Source: Streptomyces sp. Q6 (GTDB lineage: Bacteria; Actinomycetota; Actinomycetes; Streptomycetales; Streptomycetaceae). From it: DNA of 64,000 bases. Made by a program: the position numbers and the translations under genes. Each line of letters starts with the position of its first letter. The first letter of the stretch is position 1. This document shows positions 12,916-16,559 of this stretch, piece after piece. The stretch covers positions 682,001-746,000 of the forward strand of contig NZ_CP146022.1 of assembly GCF_036967205.1 (NCBI RefSeq). Reading direction: 5' to 3'. Below the pieces are notes generated by a model. It saw nothing but the letters and a program-made list of their open reading frames with translations, was not told the DNA's origin and did no database searches.

Positions 12916-14019
12916 GTGAGTTCAGGTCCGGTGGGGGTCGCCGTCGTCGGGGCGGGTGTGATCAGCGCGGAGTATCTGCGCACGCTGGCGGCGTTCCCCG
13001 ACGTACGGGTCGTGGCGGTCGCCGATCTGGACATCGCCCGCGCCGAGGCGGCGGCCCGCGCCCACGGGGTGCCGGTCGCCGGGGACCTCGCGACGGTCCT
13101 GGCGCTGCCGGAGGTCGAGCTCGTCGTGAACCTGACCGTGCCGGCGGCGCACGTGGCCGTGGCCCGGGAGGCGCTGCGCGCGGGCAGGCACGTGTACGGG
13201 GAGAAGCCGCTGGCGCTGCTGCCGGGCGAGGCGGAGAAGCTCCTCGCCGAGGCGGCCGAGCGGGGGCTGCTGGTGGGGTGCGCGCCCGACACGTTCCTCG
13301 GGGCGGGGCTCCAGTCGGCGCTGCGGGCCGTCGCCGCGGGGCACATCGGTGCGCCGGTCGCGGCGTCGACGGCGGTGTGCGGGCTCGGGCCCGAACGCTG
13401 GCATCCCGACCCGGCGTTCTTCTACCAGCCGGGCGCGGGCCCGCTGTTCGATCTCGGCCCGTACTACCTGACGGCGCTGGTGGCGCTGTTCGGCGGTGTC
13501 GAGCGGGTCGCGGCGTCGGCCCGGCGGGCGCGCGCGGAGCGGGTGGCCGGGGCGGGGCCCGCGGCCGGCCGGGTGTTCCCCGTCGACGTGCCCACGCATG
13601 TGTCGGCGCTGCTCGACTTCGCGTCGGGGCCGACCGCGACGTCCGTCTTCAGCTGGGACGCGGCACGGCCGCATCTGCACTTCGAGGTCGTCGGCACGGA
13701 GGCCACGCTGTCGGTGCCCGACCCGAACCGGTTCGACGGGTCGCTGCGGCTGCGGCCCAACGGCGCGGCGGACTGGGCCGAACTTCCCGTCGCGGGGCGC
13801 GCGGACGGTCGCGGGCTCGGGGTCGTCGACCTGGCGCGGTCGATCCGTACGGGGACGGCGCCGCGGGCCTCGGGCGCGCTGGCGCTGCACGTCCTGGAGA
13901 CGATGACGGCGGTGACGGACTCGGCCCGGCGCGGCGCGTTCACGGGGCCGCCCACGCCGTTCGTGCCGCCCGCGCCGCTGCCGGTGGCGTGGGATCCGAC
14001 GGAGGCGACGCTCGGCTAG
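12916..14019 (+). CDS. Gfo/Idh/MocA family NAD(P)-dependent oxidoreductase
   Basis: A 367-residue oxidoreductase with an N-terminal Rossmann domain (VGVAVVGAGVISAEYL, residues 6-21) and the family's GEKPLAL motif, whose Lys is the usual catalytic or cofactor residue. The C-terminal alpha/beta domain shows LFDLGPYYLTALV and FEVVGTEATL. Members oxidise or reduce sugars, inositols and related alcohols with NAD(P). GTG at 12916 follows TTGGGGGCAGC. No sugar transporter or kinase lies next to it, so the substrate is open. The gene ends 69 bases before a tandem pair of IS elements. Confidence 0.9.
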   Translation: MSSGPVGVAVVGAGVISAEYLRTLAAFPDVRVVAVADLDIARAEAAARAHGVPVAGDLATVLALPEVELVVNLTVPAAHVAVAREALRAGRHVYGEKPLALLPGEAEKLLAEAAERGLLVGCAPDTFLGAGLQSALRAVAAGHIGAPVAASTAVCGLGPERWHPDPAFFYQPGAGPLFDLGPYYLTALVALFGGVERVAASARRARAERVAGAGPAAGRVFPVDVPTHVSALLDFASGPTATSVFSWDAARPHLHFEVVGTEATLSVPDPNRFDGSLRLRPNGAADWAELPVAGRADGRGLGVVDLARSIRTGTAPRASGALALHVLETMTAVTDSARRGAFTGPPTPFVPPAPLPVAWDPTEATLG

Positions 14020-14059
14020 GGGCCGCCCGGCGGATCAGGTCGCATCAGGGTGCCCCGCG

Positions 14060-14079
14060 CCCGCGGCGGGACCCGCGGG
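14060..14079 (+). terminator. Hairpin after the Gfo/Idh/MocA gene
   Basis: CCCGCGG (14060-14066) and CCGCGGG (14073-14079) form a 7-bp GC stem with a 6-base loop 41 bases after the stop. No U-run follows, so a weak terminator at best. Confidence 0.35.
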
Positions 14080-14089
14080 ACAGCCCCTA

Positions 14090-14960
14090 AAGCGTGTTGC
14101 ACAAGGCCGTGAACTGGGCATATCCGGTGTATGGCTGGGGTGTTGAGGGCTGAACGGGTGTGGGTGGAGACGTTCACGGGGCTGTCGATGGAGCAGTTCG
14201 GGCGGCTGCTGAGGGTGGTCCGTGACCGAGGCGGCAACGGCACGCTGCGGGGCCGTCCGTGGTGTCTGCCGCTGGCCGAACGGGTCTTGATCGTGGCCGT
14301 GTACTACCGCACCAACCTGACCATGCGGCAGCTCGGGCCGCTGTTCGGGACCTCTTCCTCGACCGTGTGCCGGGTGATCCAGAAGCTCGGCCCGCTGCTC
14401 GCGCTGGAGCCGGTGGCCCGTCCGGCCGACGCGGCGGACCGGTTGTGGATCGTGGACGGCACCCTCATCCCGGTCCGCGACCGGCACGTCGGCTCCTCCT
14501 CACGCAACTACCGGTTCTCCGCAAACGTGCAGGTCATTGTGGATGCCGACACCCGTCTCGTGATCGCCGCGGCCCGGCCGGTGCCGGGCACCACCGCGGA
14601 CGCGCACGCCTGGCGGGCCTCCGGCCTGGCCCAGCACTGCCAGGGCGTGACCATGCTGGCCGACGGCGCCTACCTCAACTGCGGGATGGTCACCCCGCAC
14701 CGCAAACGCCCCCGACGCGAGCTGCTGGCGGGCGAGGAGGCCGACAACGCCGCCCATCGCACGGTGCGGGCCCGGGTGGAGCATGTGATCGGCCGGATGA
14801 AGAACTACAAGATCCTCCGCGACTGCCGGCAGCACGGCGACGGCCTTCACCACGCCGTCCAAGCCGTCGCCCAGATGCACAACCTCGCCCTCGCCTCATG
14901 ACCAGAGGACTGCCCTCACTAACCCTGACCTGCCCGAACACCGCCTTGTGCAACACGCTT
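14090..14960 (+). mobile_element. IS5-family insertion sequence A (871 bp)
   Basis: The element is bounded by perfect 18-bp inverted repeats AAGCGTGTTGCACAAGGC (14090-14107) and its complement (14943-14960), and flanked by TA on both sides (14088-14089 and 14961-14962). It carries one transposase gene. The right-hand TA is also the left-hand TA of the next element, so the two elements abut with only these 2 bases between them. Both ends and the transposase look intact. Confidence 0.9.
14131..14901 (+). CDS. IS5-family transposase (element A)
   Basis: A 256-residue DDE transposase with an N-terminal HTH (LTMRQLGPLFGTSSSTVCRVIQ, about residues 60-80) and a DDE_Tnp_4-type catalytic core. Candidate acidic residues are in IVDGTLIPV, LADGAYLN and RARVEHVIGRMKNYKIL. 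It fills most of the 871-bp element and appears full length, so the element may be mobile. ATG at 14131 has no clear ribosome binding site, as is common for IS genes. Confidence 0.9.
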   Translation: MAGVLRAERVWVETFTGLSMEQFGRLLRVVRDRGGNGTLRGRPWCLPLAERVLIVAVYYRTNLTMRQLGPLFGTSSSTVCRVIQKLGPLLALEPVARPADAADRLWIVDGTLIPVRDRHVGSSSRNYRFSANVQVIVDADTRLVIAAARPVPGTTADAHAWRASGLAQHCQGVTMLADGAYLNCGMVTPHRKRPRRELLAGEEADNAAHRTVRARVEHVIGRMKNYKILRDCRQHGDGLHHAVQAVAQMHNLALAS

Positions 14961-14962
14961 TA

Positions 14963-16011
14963 ACGAGCTCGTGCACGGTAGGCGGTGAGACGTCGCGAAC
15001 TTCGGTGCGACCCAGCTTCACATCTGCCATGTCGGGTTCAGGTCCGCGGTCTGCTGGTGGGACAGCAGGCCGGCGATGGCTTGGACGGTGTCGCTCATGT
15101 GCTCGCGGCGGCCGAGGTGGCGGGCCAGGGCCCGCCAGTTCTTCAGATGGGCGATGCCGTGCTCGACACGGATACGTCGTGATGAGTGCGCCTTGCGCTG
15201 GCGCTCGTGCATCTCTTCGTACCAGTCCGGGGCGTTCTTCTTGAACTTGCGGTGCGGTGGTGTCACCACCCGGCCACCGGTCTGGGCGCCCAGTCCCTGG
15301 TAGCCGGCATCAGCCAGGATCTCGACTGCAGGCCCGTCGGCCAAGAGGTTGACCAGCCCTAACTGGCGGGCATGGGTGATGTCCGCGCAGCTTGCGGGAC
15401 GGGCCGGGCTGCACCACAGCACGCGGCCTTCGCCGTCCGTGACCACCATGGACTTGACGGCGTTCTGCTTGTTCTTGCCGGAGATGAACTTGTCGCGGTC
15501 CTTGCGTCCGGCAGCGGGCCGGCGGACCCGGATCTCGGTGCCGTCGACGATGCCGGTCGCCCCGCTCGCGCCGAGATGGTCGACAACCTCAGCGAGAGAC
15601 CGCAGCCGCACGTCGGGGCTGACGGTGCAGCCCCGCTCGGCGAGCAGGGGCCGCACCTCACCGATGGCCCGGGTGACGGTGGAACGGTCCGCTCCGAACC
15701 AGCAGGCCAGCACATCATGGGTGACCCCGTGACGAAGATGGACCAGCGTGGCCAGCAGCCGGTCGACGAACACCAGCCGGTACTTCGCGCCTGCGCCCAC
15801 AGCCCTCTGCCGCGGGCGAGCGGCAAGCCTCGCCTGATGACGCTCATGCCACAACGGTCCGATCTCCTCGACGAGTTCAGCAATCACTCCGGCAGTCAGC
15901 CCCGTGATCCGCCGATTGCCGATGATCACCGCGCGCGTCGAGTTCCCCACCACCCGACCATGATCAACCATCCAGGCTCGACGTCTCACCGCCTACCGTG
16001 CACGAGCTCGT
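14963..16011 (-). mobile_element. IS5-family insertion sequence B (1049 bp)
   Basis: Perfect 33-bp inverted repeats at 14963-14995 and 15979-16011, beginning ACGAGCTCGTGCACGG, enclose one leftward transposase gene. The flanks are TA at 14961-14962 (shared with element A) and TA at 16012-16013. Removing both elements and the extra TAs restores CCCC-TA-GGGAG, a CTAG-centred target. The insertion lies in the third base of the PadR stop codon: TAG became TAA with no amino-acid change. Confidence 0.92.
15018..15971 (-). CDS. IS5-family transposase (element B)
   Basis: A 317-residue DDE_Tnp_4 transposase unrelated in detail to element A's. It has an HTH region (HGVTHDVLACWFGADRSTVTRAI), catalytic-type segments GIVDGTEIRVRR, ADAGYQGLG and RIRVEHGIAHLKNWRALARH, and a lysine-rich RKDRDKF stretch. 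ATG at 15971 lies just inside the inverted repeat; a GTG at 15989 is in frame within the repeat. No frameshift is visible, so the element may be active. Confidence 0.9.
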   Translation of the reverse strand: MVDHGRVVGNSTRAVIIGNRRITGLTAGVIAELVEEIGPLWHERHQARLAARPRQRAVGAGAKYRLVFVDRLLATLVHLRHGVTHDVLACWFGADRSTVTRAIGEVRPLLAERGCTVSPDVRLRSLAEVVDHLGASGATGIVDGTEIRVRRPAAGRKDRDKFISGKNKQNAVKSMVVTDGEGRVLWCSPARPASCADITHARQLGLVNLLADGPAVEILADAGYQGLGAQTGGRVVTPPHRKFKKNAPDWYEEMHERQRKAHSSRRIRVEHGIAHLKNWRALARHLGRREHMSDTVQAIAGLLSHQQTADLNPTWQM

Positions 16012-16559
16012 TAGGGAGCCGGCGGGTCGTCGAGGTCGAGGTCGGCCAGGGTCCGTTCGAGCCAGTGCACCCAGAACGTCTCCAGGTCGATGCCCGCGCG
16101 CAGCACCGCGTGTTGCAGGCGGTCCGCCATGGCATCCTTCTCCGGCGGGAAGTCCCGTGCGTCGATCTCACGGTAGGTCGCCAACTGCCGCCGGTGCAGG
16201 TCGAGATGGCGGTGCAGATCGTCCCTGAGGCCGTCCGTGCCGACGACGGCGGCGGAGCGCAGCCGCAGCAGCAGGGGGTCGCGCAGCGCCTTGGGGTCCT
16301 GCGGCGCGGCCGTCCAGCGGGCCAGTTCGGCGCGGCCCTGCGGCAGGACCTCGTAACTCTTCTTCTGGCCGCGGGCCGGTGCCTGGCCGGGGAGTGCGCG
16401 GATGAGGCCGTCGCGCTCCAGTCGGCCCAGCTCCCGGTAGATCTGCTGGTGCGTCGCCGACCAGAAGTAGCCGATGGACCGGTCGAACCTGCGGGTCAGT
16501 TCGAGGCCCGACGACGGCTTCTCCAGGAGGGCCGTGAGGATCGCGTGCGGGAGTGACAT
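16011..16559 (-). CDS. PadR family transcriptional regulator
   Basis: A 182-residue PadR protein: the winged helix (residues 1-85: SLPHAILTALLEKPSSGLEL, YFWSATHQQIYRELGRLERDGLI) followed by an alpha-helical dimerisation domain. It lies 76 bases after the dienoyl-CoA reductase on the same strand, so probably shares its transcript and may regulate it. Its stop codon is formed at the edge of IS element B, the last base coming from the IS, so the protein is unchanged but its native 3' flank and any terminator are now displaced by about 1.9 kb. Confidence 0.9.
   Translation of the reverse strand: MSLPHAILTALLEKPSSGLELTRRFDRSIGYFWSATHQQIYRELGRLERDGLIRALPGQAPARGQKKSYEVLPQGRAELARWTAAPQDPKALRDPLLLRLRSAAVVGTDGLRDDLHRHLDLHRRQLATYREIDARDFPPEKDAMADRLQHAVLRAGIDLETFWVHWLERTLADLDLDDPPAP

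Follow-up and report, generated by a model that had tools for sequence, protein, structure and literature searches.

The insertion sequence pair at the padR stop codon

Two insertion sequences (ISs), designated A and B, lie end to end at the 3' end of a padR-type regulator gene in the window, the 64,000-nucleotide stretch of Streptomyces sp. Q6 DNA analysed here (Table 1). Their boundaries, perfect terminal inverted repeats and common TA dinucleotide agree with a preliminary description of this DNA; the repeats count as 20 bp for A and 35 bp for B if the flanking TA is included. The preliminary description also proposed that the insertion had changed the padR stop codon from TAG to TAA, and the comparisons bear this out: the stop is now TAA (16013-16011, minus strand), its last base being the terminal base of B, while several relatives carry CTAG at this position. 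The PadR protein is left unchanged by the presence of A and B in its stop codon.

Table 1. Features of the A-B stack and its flanks, in window coordinates
Feature	Position	Strand	Description
C-type IS terminus look-alike	14076..14089	-	TAGGGGCTGTCCCG; flush with A
TA, left outer duplication (of A)	14088..14089	.	
IS element A	14090..14960	+	871 bp; 18-bp perfect inverted repeats AAGCGTGTTGCACAAGGC; 5 full genome copies
Transposase of A	14131..14901	+	256 aa; HTH_Tnp_4 and DDE_Tnp_4 (IS5 family)
TA common to A and B	14961..14962	.	With terminal T of A and terminal A of B gives TTAA, which spaces the cores by 4 bp
IS element B	14963..16011	.	1049 bp; 33-bp perfect inverted repeats; 7 full genome copies, 99.6-100% identical
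Transposase of B	15018..15989	-	323 aa; HTH_Tnp_4 and DDE_Tnp_4; ~30% identity to A transposase
padR-type regulator gene	16011..16559	-	Stop TAA here; several relatives have TAG, within CTAG
TA, right outer duplication (of B)	16012..16013	.	Supplies bases 1 and 2 of the padR stop, minus strand

The DDE_Tnp_4 profile matches the A and B transposases with E-values of 4.2e-18 and 3.2e-21, and HTH_Tnp_4 is found in both. The best NCBIfam model in each case is an IS5-family one, with scores of 90.3 (A) and 63 (B) that fall below the IS5_4 cut-off of 140, so that any placement in a named IS5 group is tentative. Both otherwise have the hallmarks of the family, namely a DDE transposase domain, perfect terminal inverted repeats (18 and 33 bp) and a short target duplication (TA at CTAG, TTA or TAA at IS ends); in many IS5 groups this duplication is ~2-4 bp. 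A and B are probably DDE insertion sequences from two different IS5-family groups. They do not seem to belong with the RNA-guided IS110/IS1111 elements, which combine a DEDD recombinase with a guide RNA: the Pfam domains are of the DDE type, and a guide-like copy of the target sought inside B and A did not exceed chance. A search of the B sequence against the PDB gave no match.

The empty site was sought in relatives. Thirty relative padR loci were fetched, and the 3' ends of padR were compared in orientation for 14 of these. CTAG ends the gene in five (L167, L168, L169, L171 and L172) and is absent in nine. Six of the fetched relatives share similarity with the left flank, which is near full-length in L167, L168, L169 and L171, all with CTAG, whereas L173 and L175 give partial left-flank matches without it. 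The comparison is one of homology of position between species. The empty site put forward in the preliminary description stands in part: CTAG at the padR stop recurs, but none of the relatives showed CCCCTAGGGAG exactly, the nearest being CACCCTAGGGTT in L171. Letters around CTAG do differ between relatives, and a differing junction had been named as grounds for doubt; the main reading stands nonetheless. The left flank of the stack in the window had no plasmid match. The segment immediately left of A (14020-14087) is ~40 bp longer than in L169 and ends in the stretch resembling a C-type terminus.

Stacks in the genome and junction modes across Streptomyces

The 8.95-Mb genome, in two contigs (C1 and C2), shows that the arrangement at padR is not an isolated case. 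B lies directly against an end of A in four of the five full A copies, at the right end of A in the window, at C1:2.47 Mb and at C1:0.85 Mb, and at its left end at C2:0.316 Mb; the outer flanks differ among the four pairs, and either end of A is in use. The fifth A copy is solitary, with TC on both sides as a 2-bp repeat, and the B copies that adjoin another IS mostly carry a 3-bp repeat. A third element, D (898 bp, with DUF4096 and DDE_Tnp_1 pieces; seven full copies), extends two of these pairs to triples, one of them D-B-A (C1:851946-854768) and the other D-A-B (C2:314970-317792), in which the two D copies are 99.3% identical and in opposite orientation. D is flanked on its left by CTA in all seven copies, and on its right by TAG in five and by TA followed by the neighbour in the two stacks. 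At L302 (G000:C2:78916-81531), two successive B-like elements with 79% and 75% identity to B adjoin a C-type remnant, and another B-type end lies at 81513. The survey of other copies suggested in the preliminary description thus yields recurrent tandem stacks. Its reading of TA as the duplication applies to CTAG sites, but not to the A copy flanked by TC or to B copies on A- or C-type ends, where a 3-bp repeat takes in the last base of the neighbour; such differing duplications, which it had listed as a reason to abandon its proposal, do occur without overturning the main reading.

The elements were sought in 392 genomes, with the best two places scored per genome; 83 and 93 genomes had a match, and some of these places were fetched, 80 of 197 loci being kept in one collection step. 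Relatives of A and B on plasmids and named contigs are nearly all from Streptomyces. With hits shorter than 500 bases skipped and 19 hits rejected for unrecognised ends or too short a flank, 112 B-family copies with both ends were collected. Three of these, from loci fetched because of adjacency (L274 and L275), were excluded from the tree and from the statistics on 109 copies, and were retained in the trimer, inverted-repeat partner, plain-CTAG consensus, A-survey, orientation and spacer counts.

An IS end or end-like motif adjoins 53 of the 109 B-family copies, or 33 of the 109 under a strict definition (an inverted-repeat partner with at most two mismatches, or a transposase within 250 bp); for 20 of the 53, the neighbour is recognised by the loose motif alone. 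The flanking trimers, counted from a B core defined as CGAG..CTCG (n=112), fall into TAA/TTA (42), TTA/TTA (29), TAA/TAA (19), TAG/TAG (2), TTG/TTG (1) and others (19), and reveal two junction modes. TAA/TTA corresponds to the plain mode at CTAG, C-TA-A[core]T-TA-G. The second mode, found against A- and C-type IS ends, is a 3-bp repeat of TTA or TAA that includes the terminal base of the neighbour; equal trimers, i.e. 3-bp repeats, account for 51 of the 112 copies and may alternatively be written, by net length, as a 1-bp repeat with element ends A..T. Outward TAA sides are IS-like in 42 of 51 cases (26 strictly) and outward TTA sides in 13 of 140 (6 strictly), a difference with a Fisher p of 6e-22 (L274/L275 excluded) that is overstated because A- and C-type ends themselves start with A and because a copy's two sides depend on one another. 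No IS was found at the remaining 9 of the 51 TAA sides. An inverted-repeat partner with at most two mismatches is present at 24 of 224 sides as opposed to none of 501 shifted windows; the IS-end patterns were written after viewing the flanks, so the shifted windows control for chance and not for the choice of pattern. The consensus over all 55 TAA sides is TAARGSNTGTCCCRNAA. Around plain CTAG sites, no wide consensus was found, the information being at most 0.15 bit from the fifth position on, and TGT occurs within 18 bp at 18 of 84 plain CTAG sides against 9.3 by chance. Given this ~2-fold excess, some plain sides may be unrecognised IS ends.

The neighbours of B are mostly A-type (end AAAGCGTGTTGCA) and C-type elements (end AAGGGCTGTCCCG), the transposases of the latter being ~50% identical to that of A. 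One neighbour, at L044, is itself B-like; at L104, a single C-type element carries B at each end; and on S. vietnamensis pSVL1 (L274, NZ_CP010408.1 168000-176500), four ISs abut one another in the order A-B-C-B'. Stacking is a recurrent feature of the genome and of the genus, beyond what the preliminary description could see. Some B relatives (L071, L111, L115 and L149) have G or C in place of A or T at the very end, on one side or on both; this base behaves as if it were part of the B-type element, yet variable. A further idea, that the plain-CTAG copies of B had taken the place of an earlier IS whose terminal A and T persisted, was dropped, as the end bases of L071 and L111 are more easily explained if this base is part of the element.

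A parallel survey of A-type elements (hits shorter than 450 bases skipped, 18 rejected) comprised 62 copies, among them loci reached through B (L162 and L195) or through adjacency (L274 and L275). TAA/TTA flanks were found in 53 of the 62, and 38 of the 62 had an IS-like motif on one or both sides, equivalent to 0.677 such sides per copy compared with 0.013 in shifted windows; the motif patterns for A, too, were defined once the flanks had been viewed. At L136 and L142, A-type elements stand directly against other A-type elements.

Probable independence and order of the insertions

The orientation of the neighbour's transposase relative to B, reading toward or away from it on either side, takes all four forms across 36 sides (13, 9, 8 and 6; L274/L275 included), and the insertion mode, plain or 3-bp, changes 31 times on a FastTree tree of B compared with 29.5 +/- 2.5 times in 100 shuffles (n=91). 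With orientations mixed and modes scattered on the tree like shuffled labels, the events look recurrent and seem to reflect repeated insertion, not one inherited pair. The same data weigh on the proposal that the pair formed once and then moved as a composite through one outer end of each element. L037 and L038, which share an identical internal A-B junction within different outer flanks, would by themselves permit such movement; it is nevertheless highly improbable, and we have rejected an A-B composite transposon, given the four orientation combinations, the distribution of modes on the tree, the reversal of A relative to B in L039, the opposite orientation of D in the two D stacks and the existence of an allele with A only.

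That allele, at L087, has A alone at CTAG with the right flank CACCCTTTAGAGATC. Its counterpart at L162 has A and B and reads CACCCTTTA, followed by B (1049 bp) and TTAGAGATC; between the two loci, the matched flanks are 99.1 and 99.5% identical, with a three-base overlap. A further locus, L208 from S. cyaneofuscatus NRRL B-2570, likewise has A and B and probably lies on the contig already represented by L162, both being 219,100 bases long. We read this pair of alleles as A having inserted first and B second, though the A-only allele could in principle have arisen by precise loss of B. A second natural comparison comes from S. anulatus, where B and A stand side by side on the NBC_01417 plasmid and the NBC 01759 plasmid lacks both and has an empty CTAG (GGGTCCTAGATGTGG; in longer form GAAGACGGGTCCTAGATGTGG), a few letters left of CTAG differing between the two. 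Searches with the flanks of L064 and L056 turned up no usable empty allele.

The preliminary description held that one of the two elements in the window had used the target duplication of the other as its own target, and this is supported. The spacer between the cores suggests which. At A/C-type neighbours it is usually 3 bp: in all 112 copies, 39 sides have 3 bp and two, in the window and at L236, have TTAA, the six other matches with a 4-bp spacer being ends that start with G. An A element entering the left TA of a B already present at CTAG would yield TTAA. On the basis of this spacer, it is likely that B inserted into the CTAG of the padR stop first and that A followed into the left TA of B, the reverse of the usual order. 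An A-first order with an atypical 4-bp joint is a less probable alternative, although not a negligible one: it would bring the window into line with L037, L038, L039 and the L087/L162 pair, from which the same order is read, but it sits poorly with the 39 to 2 distribution of spacers and with the prevalence of TAA/TTA flanks around A itself.

Proposed targeting of CTAG and IS ends

The preliminary description offered a preference for CTAG or for IS ends as alternatives, and both are seen. In the explanation that we consider likely, these IS5-family elements would target CTAG, and B would have an added preference for the ends of a related IS group. A and B would both take the rare CTAG as target and duplicate its TA; B would in addition insert flush against the outer ends of A- and C-type ISs, producing a TTA or TAA repeat composed of the neighbour's TA and its terminal base; A, too, is often found next to the ends of C-, D/E- or B-type elements, usually in the TA mode; and stacks, two to four ISs deep, would build up at what was once a single CTAG. 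Of this scheme, the adjacency, its recurrence, the two junction modes, CTAG as the empty site and the pair of A-only and A+B alleles are directly observed. Our confidence in it is slightly lowered by the post-hoc nature of the motifs and by the two partially syntenic relatives without CTAG.

Could the rarity of the motif alone produce the stacks? CTAG is ~7-fold under-represented in 400 kb of contig C1 (L280-L299; 62 against 451 expected), or ~1,390 per genome by extrapolation, and CTTAG and CTAAG together number 37 in the same 400 kb, or ~830 per genome; one 20-kb stretch, L294, holds 14 CTAG. In DNA of 71% G+C, IS ends might consequently supply a good share of the available sites, and plain CTAG sites indeed display little beyond CTAG. 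The genome, however, has ~13 A/C ends (10 A ends and three exact C motifs, a number that excludes the degraded C-type stretches also present) among ~2,220 sites, from which <1% of insertions would be predicted at such ends, whereas five of seven B copies (L037, L038, L039, L042 and L043) are found there (p 1.4e-10; a variant with four of six B copies gives p 1.7e-8; both values are rough, the site numbers being extrapolated). A CTAG ~70 bp left of the stack, at 14016-14019, has also stayed unoccupied, and we regard motif rarity alone as an improbable explanation. Scarcely more probable is that selection, not targeting, shaped the pattern, with insertions in genes being lost and those against an existing IS tolerated. 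The preserved padR stop and the impression that stacks generally lie outside coding sequence accord with this idea, and selection may contribute to stacking; on its own, it leaves unexplained why the joints are base-exact at the neighbour's end and not within the neighbour. We infer that the preference stems from target recognition and not from the survival of harmless insertions.

Four places in the genome match the C-end pattern TARGNNYTGTCCCR, each of them flush with A or with a B-family element, and a reversed control matches eight; one of the four is the left flank of A in the window. No C-type element was found in the window despite this terminus-like stretch, and a C-type transposase behind the motif was sought there and at L043 with no result. 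The explanation may be that the DNA sequence as such is read at these two places, that the motif is what remains of a decayed old IS or, for the window's motif, that the resemblance is due to chance.

Among known systems, IS30 prefers its own ends, and its target choice is related to inverted repeats. The likeness to the stacks described here lies in joints between inverted repeats (PMC9333248). The partner here, in contrast, usually belongs to a different IS group, with TTA, TAA or TA between the ends. IS4321 and IS5075 (IS1111 group) target the terminal inverted repeats of Tn21-type transposons and also land in the 3' end of ureC, which resembles such a repeat and is called a safe harbour (PMC8269217). 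They are alike in landing at the ends of other elements, and the padR flank in the window also resembles an IS terminus; the IS110/IS1111 families use a DEDD-type, RNA-guided enzyme, whereas A and B are DDE elements of the IS5 family whose insertion abuts the end. IS4321/IS5075 and B would thus be close in effect and different in enzyme class. IS5-family groups such as IS427 and IS1031 share with A and B the DDE_Tnp_4 transposases, inverted repeats and 2- or 3-bp repeats. IS5-family elements of Leifsonia are reported to fall between these two groups, one having a 3-nt insertion site; targeting of IS ends is not described in the accessible portion of that source (PMC2516522). In the literature searched, where subscription papers are thinly covered, no description of end-stacking by IS5-family elements in Streptomyces was found.

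The balance tips slightly in favour of a broader proposal, that a DDE transposase of the IS5 family may have evolved to recognise the terminus of a related IS group as a favoured insertion site, switching from a 2-bp TA duplication at CTAG to a 3-bp one at the IS end, with distinct IS lineages assembling into ordered stacks on single CTAG sites across Streptomyces. If true, this would be a case of IS-end targeting by a DDE enzyme in which base-exact joints record the order of insertion. The natural alleles, empty, A only and A+B, offer a ready system for asking how a transposase reads the end of another element and what makes the duplication lengthen from 2 to 3 bp. It is enticing to consider that, if the proposal holds, such targeting would give insertion sequences a way to land without harming the genes of their host.
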